A program made the translations under genes and the position numbers. The notes under the pieces are model-generated. The model searched no databases and was not told the DNA's origin. It was given only the letters and a program-made list of their open reading frames with translations. Source: Asanoa siamensis (GTDB lineage: Bacteria; Actinomycetota; Actinomycetes; Mycobacteriales; Micromonosporaceae). From it: a stretch of DNA of 64,000 bases. Below are positions 48,852 through 60,092 of the stretch, one piece after another. Where the stretch lies: the NCBI RefSeq assembly GCF_016862555.1, contig NZ_BONE01000044.1:1-64000 (forward strand). The letters are read 5' to 3'. Numbering within the stretch: the first letter of the stretch is position 1; each line of letters begins with the position of its first letter.

Positions 48852-51371
48852 ATGAGCGCTCTGCGGGCCGGCCTGGGTCGGGTCGCCCGCGGCGCCGGGG
48901 ACGTGCCGGCGCGGGCGCACGCCTTCACCGGCTTCCTCATCGTCGGCGCGGTCGTCGTCACCATCGTCGGGCTCCTCTGGCCGGCGACGATCCCGACCGA
49001 TGACCCGCTGCCGCCCGCCGCCCGGTTCGGCATCGCCTGCGGCGTGATGGCCCTGGCCCAGCTCGCCAGCCTCCGACTACGCATCGGCTCCGGGCGACTA
49101 TCCGTCACCTGGGGCGAGGCCGCGCTGATCATCGGCCTCTACGTCGCACCATCCGGCTGGCTGGCCGCCGCCACGTTCGCCGGCGCCTTCGCCGCCTGGC
49201 TCCTCCTCGCGGTCTTCGCGAAGCTCCGCACCCCGATCGAGGTCGTGCACATCGCGGCCAGCCAGACCGTCGCGGTCGCGGCCGCGGTCACCGTCGCCTG
49301 CCGCCTCTCGGACCCGATCGGCGCACCGCTCACCCCGCCGCTGGCCGGCGCCCTGGTCCTGGGCGCGCTCACCTACCTGCTCGTCGGCGCGCTGCTCGCG
49401 GTGGTCTTCCTCCGCCTCGTCCACGGCGTCCCGGTGTTCGCGACGCTGCTCCGCGCGCTGCGCGACAAGATGCTGATGGTCGTCGGCAACGTCCTGGTCG
49501 GCCTCGCGGTGGTCGCGATGGTCGACAGCGACCCCCGCTGGCTGCTGCTGCTCCCGCCGGTGCTCTGGCTGCTCCACCAGACCTACGGGCAGCGCCTGCG
49601 GGCCGCCGACGAGCGGCGCGCCTGGGAGGAGTTCGCCGGCGCCACCAGCGCGCTCAAGAAGCTCGACGAGGACGAGGTGGCCACGGCCGGTGTCGCGGGC
49701 GCGCTGCGCCTGCTGGTCGCCGAGCGGGTCGACCTCGACGTGATCCGGATGGACGGCGGCTGGCGGCGCTACCACGGCGACGCCGACGGCGGTGGGGGAG
49801 CCGCCGACCTCGACGAACGGCCCGCCACCGAAGGCGACGAGTCCACCCTCGTCCGCGAGCTGACTGTCCGCGGCCAGCTCGTCGGCCAGATCCGGGTCGC
49901 GTTGCCGCGCCCCACGCTGCCGTCGGCCCGCGACGAGTTCGCGCTCCGCTCGTTCGGCGACACCCTGGCGGTGGCCCTGCACGACGCGGTCACCCACCGC
50001 GCCTGGGCGCTGCTGCGCGAACGCTCCTCGTACGACGCCGTGCACGACCGGACGACCGGGCTGCTCGACCGGACCGCCGTGGTCGCCCAGGGTGACGCCG
50101 CCCTGCGCCGGCTGGGCCGCGACCATCCGATCGCCCTGCTCGTCGTCGACATCAAGCAGTTCCGCACCGTCAACGACACGCTCGGCCACGCGGCCGGCGA
50201 CGAGTTGCTGGCCGCGACCGCCGCGCGGATGAACACGCTGACCGGCCCCGGCGAGCTGCTCGGCCGGCTCGGCGGCGACCAGTTCGCGCTGCTGCTCGCC
50301 GGGCCCGAGCGGATGACCACGTCGCGGGCGCTGGACCGGGCCGCGGAGATGGTCGAGGCCGTGGCGACGCCGACCGAGGTGCAGAGCATCCAGCTCGCGG
50401 TCGAGGCCTCCGCGGGCGTGGTCGTGGCCGCCGCCGGCAGTGCCAACGTGGCCGAGCTGCTGCGCAGGGCCGACATCGCGCTGCGCTACGCCAAGCAGGA
50501 CGGCGGCGCCAACACCGCCTGCTACGACCCGAGCCGCGACGAGAGCAGCACCGACCAGCTCACCCTGCTGGCCGAGCTGCGCGAGGCCCTGGAGGCCGAG
50601 GACCAGCTCGTGCTGGCGCTGCAGCCCGCCGTCGACCTGACCACCGGCGCCCCCACCGGCGTCGAGGCCCTGATCCGCTGGCGCCACCCGCGCCGCGGCG
50701 TCCTCAAGCCCGGCGACTTCGTCCGGGCCGCCGAGGAGAGCGACCTGCTGGGCGCCTTCACCCTCTACGTGATCGACCGCGCGCTGCGGGTCGCGGCCGA
50801 CGTGGCCGCGCACGGCATGGACGTGCCGATCGCGGTCAACCTGTCGGCGCACAACCTGCTCGACCAGCACCTGCCCAACGCCGTCGCCGAGTTGCTCCGC
50901 CAGCACGGCGTCGGGCCCGAACGGCTCGTCCTGGAGATCACCGAGACCGTGGTGATGAGCGACCAGGAGATCATCGACGAGGTGCTCGCGGGCCTGCGGA
51001 ACCTGGGCGTGCGGATCGCGCTCGACGACTTCGGCACCGGCTACTCGTCGCTGGCCTTCCTGGCCCGGGTGCCGGTCGACGAGGTCAAGGTCGACCGCTC
51101 GTTCGTCATGCGGATGGCCGAGTCGCCCCAGGCCGCCGCGATCGTCCGCTTCACCATCGGGCTCGGCCAGGAACTCGGGCTACGGGTCGTGGCCGAGGGC
51201 GTCGAGACGGCCGCCCAGCGCGCCGCGTTGGAAAACCTCGGGTGCGCGGCGGCGCAGGGCTACCACTTCTTCAAGCCGATGCCGGCCGACAAGATCGTGG
51301 CGGTGTTGAGCCAGCTCACCGACTCGGCGCGGGCCAAGGTCTTCCCGCTGCGGGCCGACGGATCGGCCTAG
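48852..51371 (+). CDS. Membrane-anchored GGDEF-EAL protein
   Basis: 839 aa. Seven or eight helices in the first ~245 residues form a MASE-like sensor, followed by a GAF-like region. GGDEF domain (about 400-560): the A-site reads LGRLGGDQFALLLAG, so the signature is GGDQF, and no RxxD inhibitory site is at its place. EAL domain (about 580-830): EALIRWRHPRRG, the two-Asp loop DDFGTGYSSLAFL, EGVET and QGYHFFKPM are intact, so c-di-GMP phosphodiesterase activity is likely. ATG 48852. Confidence 0.9.
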   Translation: MSALRAGLGRVARGAGDVPARAHAFTGFLIVGAVVVTIVGLLWPATIPTDDPLPPAARFGIACGVMALAQLASLRLRIGSGRLSVTWGEAALIIGLYVAPSGWLAAATFAGAFAAWLLLAVFAKLRTPIEVVHIAASQTVAVAAAVTVACRLSDPIGAPLTPPLAGALVLGALTYLLVGALLAVVFLRLVHGVPVFATLLRALRDKMLMVVGNVLVGLAVVAMVDSDPRWLLLLPPVLWLLHQTYGQRLRAADERRAWEEFAGATSALKKLDEDEVATAGVAGALRLLVAERVDLDVIRMDGGWRRYHGDADGGGGAADLDERPATEGDESTLVRELTVRGQLVGQIRVALPRPTLPSARDEFALRSFGDTLAVALHDAVTHRAWALLRERSSYDAVHDRTTGLLDRTAVVAQGDAALRRLGRDHPIALLVVDIKQFRTVNDTLGHAAGDELLAATAARMNTLTGPGELLGRLGGDQFALLLAGPERMTTSRALDRAAEMVEAVATPTEVQSIQLAVEASAGVVVAAAGSANVAELLRRADIALRYAKQDGGANTACYDPSRDESSTDQLTLLAELREALEAEDQLVLALQPAVDLTTGAPTGVEALIRWRHPRRGVLKPGDFVRAAEESDLLGAFTLYVIDRALRVAADVAAHGMDVPIAVNLSAHNLLDQHLPNAVAELLRQHGVGPERLVLEITETVVMSDQEIIDEVLAGLRNLGVRIALDDFGTGYSSLAFLARVPVDEVKVDRSFVMRMAESPQAAAIVRFTIGLGQELGLRVVAEGVETAAQRAALENLGCAAAQGYHFFKPMPADKIVAVLSQLTDSARAKVFPLRADGSA

Positions 51372-51374
51372 TTC

Positions 51375-51944
51375 CTAGGGCTGGATCAGCGTCGTGACCG
51401 CTGAGACGACCAAGGCGCGGCGGGTGGCGCGGTCCTGCGGGGCCGTCACGTGCATCTCGGGCGACAGCACCGACCACATGTTGGCGATGGTCAGCACGAG
51501 GGCCAGGATCTCCGCCGCCGTGTAGCGGGTCGTGATCAGGCCGGCGGCCTGGGCCCGCGCGATCGTGTCGACCTTGGCCTGGTTGGCGTCGAGCACCGCC
51601 TGGATCGGCGGCTGGTCGGCGGCACGCTCCAGGCGGTGCCAGGTGGCCAGGCGCAGCGCGTCGGGATGGGCCTCGGACGCGTCGAAGAGGCGACCGGCGT
51701 ATTCCGGGAGATCGGCGGCGTCGATCGGGGCCTCGGCCAGCGCCTGGCTCACGATCATCTCGAAGACCGCCGTGAACAGGCCGTCCTTGTTGCCGAAGTG
51801 AAAGTAGATGAGCGCCTTGTTGGCACCGGCCGCGGCCGCGATGCGGTCGACGCGCGCTCCGGCGATGCCGTGGGCGGCGAACTCGCGATAGGCGGCCTCC
51901 ACCAGGCGGCGGCGGGTTTCCTGGGCGTCTCCGGTCGGCGGCAT
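51375..51944 (-). CDS. TetR-family repressor
   Basis: 189 aa. N-terminal HTH (TRRRLVEAAYREFAAHGIAGARVDRIAAAAGANKALIYFHFGNKDGLFTAVF) and a ligand-binding all-alpha domain. Divergently transcribed from an SDR gene, with two inverted-repeat operators between the two starts. It probably represses both. Effector unknown. ATG 51944. Confidence 0.9.
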   Translation of the reverse strand: MPPTGDAQETRRRLVEAAYREFAAHGIAGARVDRIAAAAGANKALIYFHFGNKDGLFTAVFEMIVSQALAEAPIDAADLPEYAGRLFDASEAHPDALRLATWHRLERAADQPPIQAVLDANQAKVDTIARAQAAGLITTRYTAAEILALVLTIANMWSVLSPEMHVTAPQDRATRRALVVSAVTTLIQP

Positions 51945-51958
51945 GTCGCTGAGATTAC

Positions 51959-52016
51959 TTGACTAACCGGTTAGTTGACAATCGGGCCTCCGCAGGTTGA
52001 CTATCTAGTTAGTCAA
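51959..52016. promoter_or_regulatory. Two TetR operators between TetR and SDR genes
   Basis: Box 1 is ACTAACCGGTTAGT (51962-51975, perfect 14-bp palindrome within TTGACTAACCGGTTAGTTGAC). Box 2 is TTGACTATCTAGTTAGTCAA (51997-52016, near-perfect). They share TTGACTA and sit about 38 bp apart, centre to centre, covering both promoters. Confidence 0.78.
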
Positions 52017-52041
52017 CGACCGAGCGAGGAGGGGTACGACC

Positions 52042-52920
52042 ATGAAGATCGCCATCGTCACGGGGAGCACCGGCGGGATCGGGTACGTGACGGCCGCCGA
52101 GCTGGCCCGGCTGGGGCGGCACGTCGTCATCGCCGGCCGGCGGCCGGAAGCGCTGCGAGCCGCCGCCGCCCGGATCCGCGCCGCGTACCCCTACAGCACC
52201 GTCTCCACCGGCGAGCTGGACCTCGCCGACCTGACGTCCGTGCGCGCGTTCGCCGGCCGGATCCTGGTCGACCACCCCCGCGTCGACCTGCTGGTCAACA
52301 ACGCCGGCGTGATGGCCGTGCCGGAGCGGCGGCTGACCGCCGACGGCTTCGAGCTCACCTTCGGCACCAACCACCTCGGGCACTTCGCGCTCACGGGCCT
52401 GCTGCTGCCGGCCCTGCTCGCCGCCGACGCGCCGCGGGTGGTGACCGTGAGCGCCGTGATCGCCCGCCGGGGCCGGCTGGACTTCGAGAACCTCGACCTG
52501 CGCACCGGCTATCGCCCGATGCGCGCCTACAGCGCGGCCAAGCTGGCCAACGTGGCGTTCGCACTCGAACTCGCCGCGCGCGCCGACGGGCTGCGCAGCA
52601 TCGCCGTGCATCCCGGGACCGCGCCCACGGGCATCCAGCGGCACGTCTCGGGCCCGCTCCGGTTCCTCGCCGACCGGGTCGTCGCCCTGTTGGGGCAGAG
52701 CGTCGAGGACGCTGCCCGGCCGAGCCTGTTCGCCGCGACCGACCCCACGGCTTCCAGCGGCGCCTACTACGCGCCGCGCGGCTTCGGCGAGGGCCGCGGC
52801 CTCCCCGCGCCGGCCAGGATCCCGGCCGCCGCGCAGGACCCGTCGACGCGTACGCGTCTCTGGACGGCCTCGGAGCGGTTGACCGGCGTCTCGTACGACC
52901 TCGCCGCGCGGGCGGGCTAG
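52042..52920 (+). CDS. Short-chain dehydrogenase/reductase
   Basis: 292 aa classical SDR. Cofactor motif [23 protein letters not shown] (NADPH-type Arg at GRRPEAL), [23 protein letters not shown] with the catalytic Ser, and [16 protein letters not shown] with Tyr and Lys (YxxxK). Ends with a C-terminal tail of the retinol-dehydrogenase/WW-oxidoreductase-like type. Controlled by the divergent TetR. ATG 52042 with GGAGGGG close upstream. Confidence 0.9.
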
Positions 52921-53873
52921 GCGGCCGCCTCGCGGCAGGCCTTGGTGATGTTGAGGTCGGCCAGGTCGAGCATCCACCGCCGCTGCGGGAAGTCGGTCGT
53001 GGCGATCCGCAGCGGGCCCTCGACCAGCGCGAGCACCTGGGCGTAGCGGTAGAACGCCAGCCGCGCCGGGTCACACGCGACAGGTCCGAGGGCCGGGTAC
53101 GCGGCACCGAAGCGGAGCTGGAGGAACGCGTGCTCCCACTCCACGTCGAAATAGGACACGCCCTCGATGTCGATCAGGACCGGCTCGCCGTCGGCCGTGA
53201 CGAGCACGTGGTCCGGGCCCAACTCGGCGTGGATCAACGCGAACTCGTGGCGGGGCCGGACAGCGCCGTGCAGCCGGCGCGCGTGCGCCGCGATCGGCTC
53301 GCGCGCCGCGGCCATCCGGTCGTCGCGGGCGGCCGCGGCGTCGAGGTGGACGAGCGCACGGTCGAGGATCACGTCCTGCGCGGGCCGCTGGGCCGCGGTG
53401 TGGTCGATCTCCTCGAGCTTTCCGTAGCGCGGACCGAACGTCGTGTGCATCCGGCGCACCGCGTCGCCGAGAGCGGCCAGCGGCGCCGCAGCGGCCGCCG
53501 GATCACGCTCCAACAGGGTCTCCAGCGTCGTGCCGCCCGCGTCCTCGAGCAGCGCGACCGCACCGTCCGTCGTGATCAGTCGCGGCACCCGCACGCCCGC
53601 CGCGGTGAGCGCGGCATGGCTCGCCGCGAACAGTGCCGGGCCGGACGCGTTGACGAACGGGTCGCCCGGCACCACCGGCGGCGCCGGCCAGTAGTCCTCG
53701 TCGTCCGTCCACCGGTAGAGCACCGCCGAGGTCCCGTCGTCCAGCCGCAGCCGGTAGACGCCCTTCCTGCTGCCCCCGGCCAGCCGCCGCACGTCGAGCA
53801 GCCGACGTGCGGTGCCGAACTGCTCGGCCACCAGGTCGCGAAGCTCGTCGCCCCGCAGGAACTCCCGCGCCAT
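52917..53873 (-). CDS. Phosphotransferase-like (APH family) protein
   Basis: 318 aa kinase-like fold. Start [22 protein letters not shown] loop [15 protein letters not shown], then [13 protein letters not shown]. The catalytic loop reads [13 protein letters not shown] and the metal loop [16 protein letters not shown]. The usual HxDxxxxN is thus HxExxxxH, so Asp to Glu and Asn to His changes in the key positions. ATG 53873 is chosen with GGAGG 4 nt upstream; TTG 53897 is in frame. Its 3' end overlaps the SDR stop. Confidence 0.78.
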
Positions 53874-53963
53874 CCCGCCTCCAAGGTCGGCGGGCAATGC
53901 TGCCGAGCGACGCCGCGCGACGCAAACGAGTTACGGGGCGTCCGCTGTGACAGGCTAGGAACC

Positions 53964-54125
53964 GTGAACAGGCTCGCCAGCGCCACCTCGCCCTACCTCC
54001 TGCAGCACGCCGACAACCCGGTCGACTGGTGGCCGTGGGGAGCGGAGGCGTTCGCCGAGGCTGCCCGGCGCGACGTGCCCGTGCTGATCTCCGTCGGTTA
54101 CGCCGCCTGCCACTGGTGTCAGTGA
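53964..54125 (+). pseudogene. Truncated 5' end of DUF255 (yyaL) gene
   Basis: 53 codons: [38 protein letters not shown] ending GYAACHWCQ*. It matches the first 53 residues of the complete gene at 56425 with about 75-80% identity. The frame breaks right at the CHWC motif, after which sequence is unrelated. GC content and codons resemble the native flanks, so this is probably the original 5' end cut off by the insertion that follows. Confidence 0.88.
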
Positions 54126-54532
54126 ACTCGTCAAACCAGTAGTGGATCTGCTGGGGCTGGCGCCAGCGAGGTCGCAGATGATCGCGTACGACGACACGGT
54201 CGACGAGGAGATCGATCGCTGGGTTGCGGTTCGCTCGAACAGGCACCGGAACTCGGGGACGAGGCCATGGCGGCCCCTCCAGGTCCTCCTCCTCCGCGAG
54301 TCCGCGTCGCGAGAGTATCCGGTGACCGAAGTGGCACAGCCGCGGTGTCGCATGCCTTCGCAGCCGTCGTAGCGGCGCGCGTTGCTGGCGGACCACCCAG
54401 GTGCGCGAGTGCCACCCGAACTGGCGGCAGCTAGGGGCGGGCCGGCTAGAGGGTCGACGCCCGACGGTGGCGGGGCGTTGTTGGATTAGCTGATGTTGAC
54501 GGTCGGACAGCGTTTCGGCTGGCCCGAGCCGT

Positions 54533-54620
54533 GAGTATCTCGGCGATGTCGAGGCCGCCCAGACGGCTCACGCGATGCTCGATACCGCCCTCTACCTACC
54601 GAAATCCTGGGTGGCGACTT
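54533..54620 (+). pseudogene. Possible IS701-family transposase remnant
   Basis: One frame reads EYLGDVEAAQTAHAMLDTALYLPKSW, which resembles the conserved (I/L)DRALYLPxSW block of IS701 transposases. Stop codons and frame changes before and after show it is only a fragment. The match is short and may be chance. Confidence 0.35.
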
Positions 54621-54847
54621 TGCGCGGTCGGCGAACGCGACCCGTTCGCGCTGGAGGTCCATCCTGCGATCGACGCAAACGCGTTGCTGCAGCGTGCGTC
54701 GAGTCGCCCTTCGGCCACGGCCAGTATGCGCGGTCGTCCGCTTCCCGCCCGACGCAGTTTCTGGCCGCGGCTGCGGAGACATCGCGGGAGCGATGACAGC
54801 CGCCGGCGCCTGGCCGGCGGTCCGTCATCATCGGCATTAGGCGTTCG

Positions 54848-55249
54848 CTACAGGGCTTGGACGCATGCTTGAGCGATCTGCACGTCCTGTTCAGCGGTAC
54901 CGCCAGAGACGCCGACCGCGCCGACGATACTGCCGTCCACGGCGGTGAGAGGCAGGCCGCCGCCGAAGGAAACCAAGCCGTCGTTGCTCCACTCGATGCC
55001 GTAGACGGGACCACCCGGCTGCGACATCTCACCGAGCACGGAGCTGGGCATACAAAACAGGACTGAGGTTTTCGCCTTTTTCAGGGCAAGGTCGATCGAG
55101 CCGAGCCAAGCCTGGTCCATACGCGAGAAATACACCAGATGGCCGCCGCCATCGACAATGGCGATGTTCATCGCGGTGCCGTTCTCAGCCGCTGCCTTTC
55201 GACCTGCGGCGGCGATACGGTCAGCAGCTTCAAGAGTCAGCGCGGACAT
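54848..55249 (-). CDS. GlcG/HbpS-family heme-binding-like protein
   Basis: 133 aa of the GlcG/HbpS fold. It begins MSALTLEAADRIAAAGRKAAAENGTAMNIAIVDGGGHLVYFSRMDQAWLGSIDLALKKAKTSVLF, and ends GGGLPLTAVDGSIVGAVGVSGGTAEQDVQIAQACVQAL. HbpS binds heme and senses redox; GlcG members' role varies. ATG 55249 has GGAGGT 5 nt upstream. Divergent from an XRE regulator, which probably controls it. Part of the inserted segment. Confidence 0.83.
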   Translation of the reverse strand: MSALTLEAADRIAAAGRKAAAENGTAMNIAIVDGGGHLVYFSRMDQAWLGSIDLALKKAKTSVLFCMPSSVLGEMSQPGGPVYGIEWSNDGLVSFGGGLPLTAVDGSIVGAVGVSGGTAEQDVQIAQACVQAL

Positions 55250-55342
55250 GGAGTACCTCCGGAGAAGTGGTGCGATCAGTTCCCGACAAGCGTCAGCCCA
55301 GCTCGTCGCAGCAGCCAGAGGCGTGTGGTGACCGGCCACCGT

Positions 55343-55369
55343 GTTCCTGGGGAGCAGCACCCCAGGAAC
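55343..55369. promoter_or_regulatory. 27-bp inverted repeat between heme-binding and XRE genes
   Basis: GTTCCTGGGG (55343-55352) and CCCCAGGAAC (55360-55369), perfect 10-bp arms with a 7-nt spacer. It lies in the 150-bp divergent promoter region, so is most likely the operator for the XRE regulator. Confidence 0.65.
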
Positions 55370-55399
55370 AGGCGAGACACGGATGTGACACTGGGCGGC

Positions 55400-56341
55400 G
55401 TGAGCGAGCTCGGACACTTTTTGAAAGCCAAGCGAGCGGCCATCAGGCCGGAAGACGTCGGTCTGCCGGCGATCGGCAACCCACGACGGGTGGTAGGCCT
55501 TCGCCGCGAGGAGGTCGCCTACCTCGCTGCCGTTAGCGCCGACCACTACACCCGCCTCGAACAAGGCCGGGTAACCACAGCCTCCAATAACATCCTCGAC
55601 GGACTTGCTCGCGCCCTCAAGCTGACTGACGACGAACACGCGTACCTGAGGTTACTTACCCAGCCCGACAGCCGACGTCGCCCTGCTTCCCGATCAGCCC
55701 AAGTCGCCGCACCCGTCCAAGACTTGCTCGACGCACTCGGCCCCACGCCCGCGCTCCTGTTGGGGCGCCGCACCGACCTCCTCGCCTGGAACACCGCCGC
55801 CACCGCATTGTTCCTCGACTTTGCGGTCCTGCCGCGACAACACCGCAACCTCGTCCGCCTGGTTTTCCTCGAGCCCCGAGTCCGTGACCTCTATGCCGAT
55901 TGGAAGCGGGTCGCCGCCGAAGCCGTTGCCCGCCTGCGCATGGACGCCGTCCACACCCCCAACGACCCGCAACTGGCCCAACTCGTCGGCGAACTCTGCC
56001 TCCAAGACGATGACTTCCGACGGTGGTGGGCGGGCCATGACGTTCGCATCACCAGCGCCGGCCGCAAACGCCTGCACCATCCCCTGATCGGAACCGTCGA
56101 CCTCGACTGGCAGGCCCTGCGACTGTGCGCAACAGCTGATCAAACGCTCGTCACTTACACCGCGCCCACGGGCAGCGCCAGCCACGACGCACTATCCATC
56201 CTCAGCTGCTGGTCGAGCGACACGCACGCGGTCAACGACCGGAACCAAGCGCCACCCCCTTTTGCCGCCGCTCCGGAAGGAAGGTTTCAGGGCCAGCGTA
56301 GAGACGGATCCCGGTGGGCGGGTCCACGTGATGGCGCGTGA
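55400..56341 (+). CDS. XRE-family regulator with MmyB-like domain, TTA codon
   Basis: 313 aa. HTH region (LGHFLKAKRAAIRPEDVGLP...VVGLRREEVAYLAAVSADHYTRLEQGR) is followed by an MmyB-like ligand-binding domain (PTPALLLGRRTDLLAWNTAATALF, EPRVRDLYADWKRVAAEAVARLR, VTYTAPTGSASHDALSIL). MmyB-type regulators are thought to sense fatty acyl ligands or similar. Codon 85 is TTA (55652-55654), so translation needs the UAA-anticodon tRNA-Leu. GTG 55400 (MSELGHFLK). The divergent heme-binding-like gene is the likely target. Codon use is less biased than in flanking genes. Confidence 0.87.
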   Translation: MSELGHFLKAKRAAIRPEDVGLPAIGNPRRVVGLRREEVAYLAAVSADHYTRLEQGRVTTASNNILDGLARALKLTDDEHAYLRLLTQPDSRRRPASRSAQVAAPVQDLLDALGPTPALLLGRRTDLLAWNTAATALFLDFAVLPRQHRNLVRLVFLEPRVRDLYADWKRVAAEAVARLRMDAVHTPNDPQLAQLVGELCLQDDDFRRWWAGHDVRITSAGRKRLHHPLIGTVDLDWQALRLCATADQTLVTYTAPTGSASHDALSILSCWSSDTHAVNDRNQAPPPFAAAPEGRFQGQRRDGSRWAGPRDGA

Positions 56342-56424
56342 GTGGGTAGCGTCCAAATCGTATGGCCATGGGGCGGCTTCCGAATCCGGATATTCGCTCC
56401 TCCCGATGTGAGACGCTGGCCGAT

Positions 56425-58422
56425 GTGAACCGATTGGGCTCTGCGACCTCGCCGTATCTGCTCCAGCATGCCGAGAACCCGGTGGACTGGTGGCCGTGGT
56501 GCTCTGAGGCGTTCGAGGAGGCGAGGCGGCGAGATGTCCCGATTTTGGTCTCGGTCGGGTATTCGAGCTGCCACTGGTGTCACGTGATGGCGCACGAGTC
56601 GTTCGAAGATGCCGGTGTGGCGAAGCTGATGAACGAGGGCTTCGTCAGCGTCAAGGTCGACCGCGAGGAGCGGCCCGACGTCGACGCCGTCTACATGACC
56701 GCGACCCAGGCCATGACCGGGCAGGGTGGCTGGCCGATGACGGTGTTCGCGGCGCCCGACGGCACGCCGTTCTTCTGCGGCACCTACTTTCCCAAGGCCA
56801 ACTTCACCAACCTGTTGCGGTCGGTCACCGACGCCTGGCGCGACCAGCGCGAGGCGGTCATGCGGCAGGGCGCCGCGGTCGTCGAGGCCATCGGCGGGGC
56901 ACAGGCGCTCGGTGGCGCCAGCTCGCCGCTCACCGCCGACCTGCTCGACGCCGCCGCGGCGAAGCTGGCCACCGACTACGACAGCGAGAGCGGCGGGTTC
57001 GGGGGCGCGCCCAAGTTCCCGCCACAGATGAACCTGCTGTTCCTGCTCCGCCACTACCAGCGCACCGGCAACGCGCAGGCGCTCGAAATCGTGCGGCACA
57101 CCTGCGAGGCGATGGCCCGCGGCGGGATCTACGACCAGCTCGCCGGCGGTTTCGCGCGCTACAGCGTCGACGCGCGCTGGATCGTGCCGCATTTCGAGAA
57201 GATGTTGTACGACAACGGCCTGCTCGTGCGCGTCTACACGCACCTGTGGCGGCTGACCGGTGACCCGCTGGCGCGGCGGATCGCCGACGAGACGGCCCGG
57301 TTCATCATCCGCGACCTGGGTACGCCCGAGGGCGGCTTCGCGTCGTCGCTGGACGCCGACACCGACGGGGTGGAGGGCCTGACCTACGCCTGGACGCCCG
57401 GGCAGCTCACCGAGGCCCTGGGGCCCGAGGACGGCCCGTACGCCGCCGACGTCTTCGAGGTGACCGCGGCCGGCACGTTCGAGAAGGGCACCAGCGTGCT
57501 GCGGCTGGCCCGGGACATGGACGACGCCAACCCGCCCGTGGTCGACCGCTGGAGCGACGTGCGGGCCCGGCTGCTGGCCGCGCGCGACCAGCGTCCCCAG
57601 CCGGCCCGGGACGACAAGGTGGTCGCCGCCTGGAACGGCCTGGCGATCACCGGGCTGGTCGACCACTACTTCGCCACCGGCGGCGCCGAGTCGCTGGAGG
57701 CGGCTGTCCGGGCGGCCACCCTGCTGGCCGACCGGCACGTGGTCGACGGCCGGCTGCGCCGGGTGTCCCGCGACGGTGTGGTCGGCGACCCGCCGGGCGT
57801 GCTCGAGGACTACGGGGCGGTCGCGGAGGCGTTCTGCGCCGTGCACCAGGCGACGCTGGACGGGCGCTGGCTCGACCTGGCCGGCACGCTGCTCGACGCC
57901 GCGCTGGCCCACTTCCCGACCGGCAACGGGGGCTACTACGACACCGCCGACGACGCGGAGCGGCTGATCACCCGGCCGGCGGACCCGACCGACAACGCGA
58001 CGCCGTCCGGGCTGTCGACGCTGGCGGCGGCGCTGACGACCTACACGGCGCTGCGCGGGGAGCCGCGCTACCGCGAGGCGGCGGAGGCGGCGCTCGGCAC
58101 GGTCGCGCCGATCGTGGGGCAGCATCCGCGGTTCAGCGGCTACGCGGCGGCCACGGGGGAGGCGCTGCTGTCCGGGCCGTACGAGGTCGTCATCGCCACG
58201 ACGGCCGACCCGACCGGTGACCCGCTGGTCGCGACCGCGTACGAGCTGGCCCCGCCCGGCGCCGTCGTGCTCGTCGGCCCACCGGACGCGCCGGGCGTAC
58301 CCCTGTTGGCGGATCGCCCGCTGCTCGACGGCGCGCCCACCGCGTACGTCTGCCGCGGTTTCGTCTGTGACCGCCCGACCACGGCGGTGGCGGATCTCAC
58401 CGCGCAGCTCGCCCGCCGGTGA
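56425..58422 (+). CDS. yyaL: DUF255 / YyaL thioredoxin-like protein (chimeric 5' end)
   Basis: 665 aa, full family length. The N-terminal thioredoxin-like domain has [44 protein letters not shown] (CxxC), followed by an alpha/alpha-barrel N-acylglucosamine-epimerase-like part ([43 protein letters not shown]). Function unknown. GTG 56425 matches the start of the truncated copy. The first ~170 nt have lower GC and codons unlike the rest, so the gene seems rebuilt from foreign 5' and native 3' parts, joined near the CHWCH motif. Confidence 0.9.
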
Positions 58423-58430
58423 CCCGGCTA

Positions 58431-58449
58431 TAGGGTTTGTGGCGCTATG
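58431..58449 (+). promoter_or_regulatory. Possible -10 box of purK
   Basis: TAGGGT at 58431-58436 lies 10 nt before the ATG at 58447. This gives a very short leader or none. Confidence 0.35.
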
Positions 58450-59598
58450 GACTCCAGGACCGGACTGCCTGTCGTCGGCATGGTGGGGGCGGGCCAGCTC
58501 GCCCGGATGACCCACCAGGCCGCCATCGCCCTCGGCCAGTCGTTGCGCGTGCTCGCCGCTCATCCCGACGACGGCGCGGCCCTGGTCGCCGCCGACGTGC
58601 AGATCGGCGCGCACACCGACCTGGCCGCGCTGCGCACCTTCGCCAAGGCCTGCGACGTCGTCACGTTCGACCACGAGCACGTGCCGGAGGCGCACATCCG
58701 CGCCCTGGCCGCCGACGGCGTGAAGATCTTCCCGTCCGCCGACGCCTTGGTGTACGCGCAGGACAAGCGCCGGATGCGCGAGCGGCTGTCGGAGCTGGGC
58801 GCACCGGTGCCGCGCTGGACGCCGATCGCGTCGCCGGCCGACCTGACGGCGTTCGGCGCGCGGACCGGCTGGCCGCTCGTGCTCAAGGCGGCCCGGGGCG
58901 GCTACGACGGGCGCGGTGTCTGGGTCGTCGACTCGCTCGACGCGGCCGCCGAGGTGCTGGCCAGCGGCACCGAGCTGATCGCCGAGGAGCTGGTCACGCT
59001 GCGCCGCGAGCTGGCGGTGCAGGTGGCGCGGTCGCCGTTCGGTCAGGTGGCGGCGTACCCGGTCGTCGAGACCGTGCAGCGCGACGGCATCAACGTCGAG
59101 GTGCTGGCCCCGGCGCCGCTGCTGCCCGAGGATCTGGCGGTCGAGGCGCAGAAGCTGGCCATCGACCTGGCGACCGCGCTCGACGTGGTCGGCCTGCTCG
59201 CGGTCGAGCTGTTCGAGACGCCGGCCGGGCTCGTGGTCAACGAGTTGGCGATGCGCCCGCACAACTCCGGGCACTGGACGATCGAGGGCGCCCGGACGTC
59301 GCAGTTCGAGCAGCACCTGCGCGCCGTGCTCGACTACCCGCTGGGCGACACCGCGCTGGCCGCGCCGGTCGTGGTGTCGGCCAACGTGCTCGGCGGGCCG
59401 CCCGGCGGCATGTCGATCGACGAGCGGATGCACCACCTGTTCGCCGAGGACCCGGGCGCCCGGGTGCACCTCTACGGCAAGCAGACCCGGCCCGGCCGCA
59501 AGATCGGCCACGTGACGGTGCTGGGCGACGACCTCGAAACACTGCGCGCCCGCGCCGCCCGCGCGGCCTGGTGGCTCCGCGAAGGGACACACGAGTGA
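58447..59598 (+). CDS. purK: N5-carboxyaminoimidazole ribonucleotide synthase
   Basis: 383 aa ATP-grasp enzyme converting AIR, bicarbonate and ATP to N5-CAIR in purine synthesis. N-terminal [24 protein letters not shown]-grasp loops [18 protein letters not shown], and [13 protein letters not shown], and the metal-binding [22 protein letters not shown] 58447. The stop overlaps the purE GTG by 4 bases, linking the two consecutive steps. Confidence 0.95.
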
Positions 59599-60092
59599 CC
59601 GACGTCGGCCTGATCATGGGCAGCGACTCCGACTGGGCGACGATGCGCGCCGCGGCGGAGGCACTCGACGAGTTCGGCGTCGCCTACGAGGTCGGCGTCG
59701 TCTCGGCGCACCGGACCCCGGACAAGATGATCGCGTACGCCCGGACGGCCGCCGACCGCGGCCTGAAGGTGATCATCGCCGGTGCCGGCGGCGCCGCGCA
59801 CCTGCCGGGCATGGTCGCCTCGGCCACCCCGCTGCCGGTGATCGGCGTGCCCGTGCCGTTGAAATACCTCGACGGCATGGACTCCCTGCTGTCCATCGTG
59901 CAGATGCCGGCCGGCGTGCCGGTGGCCACCGTCTCGATCGGCGGTGCCCGCAACGCGGGGCTGCTCGCGGTCCGCGTGCTCGCCGCCGCCGACCCGGCGT
60001 TGCGGCAGCGGATGATCGACTTCCAGGCGGGCCTGGAAGTGCTGGTGGCCGAGAAGGAAGCCGCGCTCAAGGCATCGCTGCGGCCGGCCTGA
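59595..60092 (+). CDS. purE: N5-CAIR mutase
   Basis: 165 aa, class I PurE rearranging N5-CAIR to CAIR. The N-terminal [14 protein letters not shown] with the phosphate-binding [15 protein letters not shown] with catalytic His, [17 protein letters not shown], and [31 protein letters not shown]. It completes the pathway step started by PurK just upstream, with overlapping GTGA. Confidence 0.96.

Follow-up and report, generated by a model that had tools for sequence, protein, structure and literature searches.

A probable site-specifically integrated island that rebuilt its target gene, yyaL, in Asanoa siamensis

Results

The thioredoxin-like gene yyaL of Asanoa siamensis is present as a truncated 5' end and, 2461 bases further on, as a complete copy. 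The 2.46-kb insert that separates the two 5' ends is bounded on either side by the same 15-bp core, which lies within the Cys-x-x-Cys (CxxC) codons of the gene. We describe here this locus, located in a 64,000-nucleotide stretch of contig NZ_BONE01000044.1 (positions 1 to 64,000, hereafter the window), together with similar islands found at the same spot in many related bacteria, which suggest that these codons are an undescribed docking site for mobile DNA. We argue that the insert is probably an island that integrated at an attachment (att) site within yyaL and provided the gene with a new 5' end. The features of the locus are as follows.

53964..54125, plus strand: truncated native 5' end of yyaL at the left joint (attL-like), 53 codons ending in CHWCQ and a stop; PF03190, 4.1e-25
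54107..54121, plus strand: 15-bp core at the left joint, CTGCCACTGGTGTCA, within the CxxC codons; from sequence comparison
54117..54142, plus strand: end of the core and insert-borne arm, TGTCAGTGAACTCGTCAAACCAGTAG; the arm is common to yyaL islands of other genera
56403..56567, plus strand: upstream region and 5' coding end of a foreign yyaL, brought by the insert, with its start codon at 56425; from alignment and codon use
56568..56582, plus strand: 15-bp core at the right joint (attR-like), the same CTGCCACTGGTGTCA; from sequence comparison
56583..58422, plus strand: native remainder of yyaL; from the reading frame, Pfam and comparison with genus mates
56425..58422, plus strand: whole restored yyaL (copy 2); open frame across the joint, PF03190

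In the insert, TGTCAGTGAACTCGTCAAACCAGTAG directly follows CACTGG. The two yyaL 5' ends can be aligned without gaps over 180 nt (53942-54121 and 56403-56582), with 72% identity. GC content is 0.657 in the insert against about 0.70-0.78 in both flanks, and GC at third codon positions (GC3) is 0.92 in copy 1, 0.81 in the 5' end of copy 2 and 0.92-0.96 beyond the joint. Five genus mates each have a single yyaL match, preceding purK. Over 143 nt, copy 1 matches these mates at 111-120 positions, the 5' end of copy 2 at 100-107 and the post-joint stretch at 126-132, where the mates match each other at 107-121 positions in the 5' part of yyaL and at 123-130 past the joint. From these counts, copy 1 looks native, the 5' end of copy 2 foreign and the rest of the gene native. 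Among the rows compared, G068, a genome from another genus of the family, has the yyaL closest to the foreign 5' end (0.91 identity).

An earlier note on this DNA, made from the sequence alone, had described much of this arrangement, and that description stands. The truncated native start of 53 codons at 53964-54125 is confirmed by its reading frame, by PF03190 and by the matches to genus mates; the insert is indeed of lower GC and has genes of its own (PF03928 and PF17765); the complete yyaL does combine a foreign first part with a native remainder, as seen in GC3; and the same 15-bp CTGCCACTGGTGTCA is found at 54107-54121 and 56568-56582. The proposal that the acquired segment came with a yyaL 5' end and thereby preserved an intact gene is supported by the open frame 56425-58422, which crosses the joint, the missing end of the target being supplied in frame by the island. 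The absence of an integrase noted there also agrees with our profile search of the insert. The note had further expected that, in genomes lacking the insert, a phosphotransferase gene (52917-53897 in the window, where it is divergent from yyaL) would be the immediate divergent neighbour of yyaL. It is not a fixed divergent neighbour: among the fetched genus-mate loci it was found near yyaL in one only, that of G001, and on the same strand there.

The same arrangement was searched for in three overlapping surveys. In the family, 347 of 354 genomes were matched by the yyaL N-terminus, 14 of them at least twice, and a same-strand 5' piece lies upstream of yyaL in 12 of these 14, including G081, whose pieces are on two contigs; in G031 the second match is on another contig. 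The class survey (304 of 394 genomes matched) adds seven more genomes with a stub upstream of yyaL. Within one large genus, 389 of 392 genomes were matched, 40 of them (counted by eye) two or more times. We rechecked 38 of these 40, the remaining two being G736 and G534, and fetched 31. Several rechecked genomes were left out: G765, G942 and G998 (second piece reaches residue 72), G813 (one match), G973 (second piece 1.4 Mb away), G1112 (weak) and G1098 (consecutive pieces, as of one broken gene). Four multi-match genomes of the class survey are also uncounted, namely G439, G449 and G542 (pieces on different contigs) and G472 (not rechecked); G449 is the only one of the four with a fetched stretch.

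Across the 51 fetched genomes, all chosen for having two or more yyaL matches, an automatic rule identified 54 truncated yyaL fragments ending by residue 60, in 47 genomes. As for the other four, the alignment continues past the joint in G412 and G959, G1072 has a short piece and G022 has none. The arrangement thus defined recurs at the same CxxC codons in several families of the class, and most fragments end there, the core being too decayed to recognise in a few (e.g., G1016, G883 and G906). Two fragments stand in tandem in G768, G816, G712 and G1105. At the yyaL CxxC codons of G022 (L142), we also observed 27 extra nucleotides that include a stop and resemble a scar, with no upstream fragment found.

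The sequence that follows the core is shared as well. The 21-nt arm of the window, which makes up the last 21 nt of TGTCAGTGAACTCGTCAAACCAGTAG, is matched at 14 or more positions, and at best at 18, by 17 of the 53 other fragments (17 genomes, which are not 17 independent cases; see Discussion), against 0.46% for shuffled arms. Arms were first chosen by eye as being alike, and the test was then repeated on all rule-found fragments. Other arm families are seen in G712 (twice) together with a Nocardia plasmid, in G412 with G354, in the g15 genomes and in G081. The meeting of several arm families at one point suggests that several recombinases share the yyaL target.

Two genomes, G194 and G778, have prophages at the yyaL site, with 53 and 57 kb, respectively, between stub and gene. 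Portal and tape-measure genes were found in both prophages; a terminase gene was detected in the one of G194, and a major head gene in that of G778. Each prophage also encodes a protein with Resolvase and Recombinase domains (PF00239, PF07508) that adjoins a joint, and the two proteins are 66% identical. Among the loci searched, a serine recombinase was found at the yyaL site in G194 and G778 only. These two genomes and G1018 have in common an attR form with GCTTCT upstream of the core. The halves of the G194 attP form an inverted repeat at 16 of 22 positions, a score equalled in 1 of 3000 shuffles, while those of the window reach 13 of 22 (11 of 500 shuffles as high) and its native left half gives 12. 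We considered that the foreign 5' ends might be recoded as an attP half-site, an idea that dyad matching does not support, native left halves being about as good a match to the right arm.

A recombinase of the G194 type was detected at 1e-30 in 7 of the 354 family genomes, including G194 itself, and no yyaL piece was found in the stretch fetched around it in the other six. A pattern-based scan of GTDB contigs found no close relatives of the G194 recombinase. Pattern scanning of these contigs also gave 57 stretches, 3 of them at yyaL. Relics of this recombinase were not found above chance in the window (50001-60000) or in the other loci compared at that stage. Viral contigs gave two yyaL matches (65-66% identity over the N-terminus, 39% over the longer match) and no fragment pair. 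One sequence labelled as a bacteriophage, MT839133 (L203), ends within yyaL; by eye, it looks like a bacterial contig with nusA and rimP-like genes. A tyrosine integrase lies in a 24-kb stretch of G1094 (L227:17452-18975), far from either joint, and perhaps belongs to a nested element.

A copy of the site was also found outside the chromosome. A 329-kb Nocardia plasmid carries a yyaL 5' end, decayed in frame, with the core and an arm. This 5' end is 0.91 identical to that at the chromosomal joint of G712, and the two arms are alike. Judging from its sequence, the plasmid copy would be attP-like, as expected of a circular form.

These observations bear on whether a dedicated site was used at all. 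Homologous or homology-facilitated recombination, in which a circular or linear donor bearing the yyaL 5' end of a relative recombined with the resident gene at the conserved motif, is consistent with the resemblance of the two 5' ends of the window (72% over 180 nt), with a foreign 5' end closest to a yyaL from a different genus of the family, with the lack of a detected integrase in the insert and with the near identity of the two 5' ends in five genomes. It does not account well for the use of one breakpoint in many cases despite about 150 nt of homology, nor for the recombinase genes that two prophages have at this point, and the non-coding arm past the core, conserved between genera, is left unexplained by chance recombination. 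We consider this scenario unlikely. The single recombination event at a conserved motif put forward in the earlier note is not the best reading of a joint that is reused, with an arm present in 17 other genomes, serine-recombinase prophages at the same point and an attP-like form on a plasmid.

In most cases the target gene remains whole: over the first 100 codons checked, the yyaL frame is unbroken across the joint in 45 of the 51 genomes and broken in six (G022, G081, G107, G778, G1018 and G194). Within a genome, the two 5' ends are 0.68-0.79 alike in 9 of the 14 genomes compared, the window's included, and those of the other five may have been homogenised. On a tree, the element-borne 5' ends cluster (13 rows, 5 changes versus 12.2 when shuffled, 0 of 500 shuffles), and a single branch gathers eight element rows from seven genomes and four genera, with support of 89/94. 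The codon string GG[GA]TA[TC]TC, which we take as a lead only, is present in 9 of 13 element ends, 5 of 33 natives, 1 of 14 fragments and none of 10 others.

If the yyaL 5' end had been duplicated locally in tandem and unrelated DNA had then entered between the copies, the 0.89-0.93 identity seen in 5 of the 14 genomes would fit. For the window, this scenario is already contradicted by the 0.75 identity of its two 5' ends. Also against it are the nine genomes in which the 5' ends are just 0.68-0.79 alike and the grouping of element-borne 5' ends from several genera, and we regard it as very improbable.

The insert of the window carries two recognised genes in divergent orientation.

54848..55249, minus strand: gene for an HbpS-like haem-degrading protein of 133 aa; PF03928, 8.9e-40
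55342..55370, no strand: perfect 11-nt inverted repeat between the divergent cargo genes, spotted by eye
55400..56341, plus strand: gene for an MmyB-like XRE regulator; PF17765, 2.5e-55, and HTH_31; start chosen by eye, open frame from 55139

The inverted repeat is a possible operator. No gene was recognised in the roughly 0.7 kb at 54126-54850 (Pfam, frames scanned), no Rfam family reached its threshold in 50000-60000, and Pfam recognised no transfer genes among the insert frames scanned. Two profiles built for this analysis found no serine or tyrosine recombinase in 53001-57500; in leave-one-out tests they recovered all 16 tyrosine recombinases and missed 1 of the 11 of the serine type.

The cargo was compared across 44 islands of 0.4-10 kb, each contained within one fetched locus. 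Among the matches listed, many have common end modules and differing middles. At least seven islands (G1105, G985, G995, G920, G789, G771 and G902) have in common a left module of about 740 bp, which in G995 contains a PIN-like toxin gene and an antitoxin-like gene, identified by eye. Such a pair was noticed just inside the left joint of several islands (L241:3800-4560 and its relatives). A frame just before the right joint, assigned to Uma2 by Pfam in G736, occurs in at least 17 of the 44 islands (L204, L231, L236 and others), all from one genus; it is possibly part of the mobility machinery. Cargo recognised among the frames submitted to Pfam and PADLOC includes NYN, RAMA, Fic, MazE with PIN, a TOTE primase-helicase, a caspase and GmrSD_N, and many of the submitted island frames matched nothing. 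Very long frames are found in the large stretches that separate the yyaL stub from yyaL in two genomes, one of 5270 aa in G821 (L219-L222) and one of 2250 aa beside AMP-binding and radical-SAM proteins in G1018 (L232-L233). Biosynthetic clusters may thus also sit at the yyaL site.

The small islands could be decayed relics, or else live non-autonomous cassettes that the integrases of same-site prophages or plasmids move in trans. Common ends with differing middles (among the matches listed for the 44 islands) would fit live cassettes, as would the contrast between small islands with no detected integrase and two large prophages with a serine recombinase, the occurrence of the arm in 17 other genomes with partly different cargo, the tandem arrays of G768, G816, G712 and G1105, and the attP-like site on a plasmid. 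However, no autonomous element with the arm of the window was found, and a similar picture would result if autonomous elements had decayed and accretion had followed. Live movement is a possibility to which we give somewhat less than even odds.

Discussion

The reuse of the joint, the shared arm, the prophages at the same point and the attP-like plasmid copy together point to site-specific integration. We favor the reading that the insert of the window is a site-specifically integrated island, now without an integrase, that restores its target gene, and we put its probability at about 0.78. The attB would be the stretch of yyaL that codes for the Cys-His-Trp-Cys active site, and the circular island would have carried, in this order, a spare copy of the yyaL 5' end that included the start region, the core and the conserved arm. 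A single crossover in the core would split the resident yyaL, leaving the native 5' end as a dead stub at the left joint and fusing the 5' end of the island in frame to the native remainder. A serine-type recombinase, or another with the same target, may have made the joint, and would have been provided in trans or have since disappeared. Islands that integrate site-specifically at these codons and bring a gene-repairing 5' end would explain why the breakpoint is fixed and the arm conserved, and would also account for the recombinases and for the form seen on the plasmid.

Several observations weigh against this reading. Neither the insert of the window nor any of the 44 small islands yielded an integrase. 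The serine recombinase is at the left joint in G194 but at the right joint in G778, and the arms of these prophages are unlike that of the window (11/21 in G194 and 12/21 in G778, shuffled arms averaging 10.2). Both of these recombinase-bearing prophages break yyaL instead of restoring it. As 14 of the 17 arm-bearing fragments come from one genus, they do not amount to 17 independent cases; the remaining three genomes (G046, G104 and G106) belong to the family of the window. The 0.89-0.93 likeness of the two 5' ends in 5 of 14 genomes fits gene conversion or local duplication. Finally, the tree labels were assigned after the identities were known, and the 5' end of the window falls outside the branch of eight element rows, beside G068.

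We tentatively extend the favored reading to a broader hypothesis, which we hold with clear reserve. The yyaL CxxC codons might serve as a class-wide docking site for small integrase-less cassettes that combine a conserved arm, their own yyaL 5' end (making insertion harmless) and swappable cargo, be it toxin-antitoxin, defence or other genes, and that are moved in trans by phage or plasmid integrases with the same target. Full-text literature searches, which did not reach most subscription papers, returned no report of an integration site in yyaL/DUF255. The words thioredoxin and DUF255 are absent from the main texts of PMC9513070, PMC3218068 and PMC12924846, a statement that concerns the main texts only and not the supplementary site tables.

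If true, these proposals would add a protein-gene hotspot to the known transfer RNA (tRNA) and transfer-messenger RNA (tmRNA) hotspots, explain the spread of small cargo without recognised mobility genes among Actinomycetes, and provide a case, open to testing, in which one sequence has to serve as attachment site and code for a functional active site. Unknown defence genes and gene clusters can in addition be sought with a simple anchor, a yyaL stub that precedes yyaL.

Parallels to parts of this arrangement exist among known elements. SXT, which encodes its own integrase, integrates in the 5' end of prfC and provides this target with a replacement for that end. Both SXT and the island of the window thus supply a new 5' end, whereas the latter has another target and no detected integrase.

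Cis-mobilizable elements (CIMEs) retain attL and attR, lack integration genes and form tandem arrays at one site (PMC5704250). The yyaL islands resemble them in all three respects: in the window, both putative att joints keep the 15-bp core and the left one the conserved arm, and no recombinase was found in 53001-57500. CIMEs are in addition derived from conjugative or mobilizable elements; among the insert frames scanned, Pfam recognised no transfer gene. Unlike CIMEs as presented there, the yyaL island targets the active-site codons of a protein gene and rebuilds that gene (PMC5704250). The ssrA islands of Dehalococcoides are likewise found in tandem at one conserved gene, with a serine recombinase in some and 15 without an integration module, but they target the tmRNA gene, whereas the yyaL islands target a protein gene in several families of Actinomycetes (PMC3146451). 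Elements of the large-serine-recombinase type have their recombinase beside a joint, where the insert of the window has none detected. Their attP has inverted repeats flanking a short core, a feature scored above at 16 of 22 for G194 and at 13 of 22 for the window, whose native left half gives 12. The Streptomyces serine-integrase phages phiJoe and SV1 are similar in using a serine recombinase and an attB inside a conserved gene, and the phiJoe site can hold a mobile element; their attB sites lie in genes other than yyaL, and SV1, unlike the yyaL islands, is stated to have no homologue or fragment compensating for its target (PMC5311408, PMC4068962). Tycheposons, lastly, also bring variable cargo to one conserved gene, and differ from the yyaL islands in targeting a tRNA and using a tyrosine recombinase (PMC10872708).

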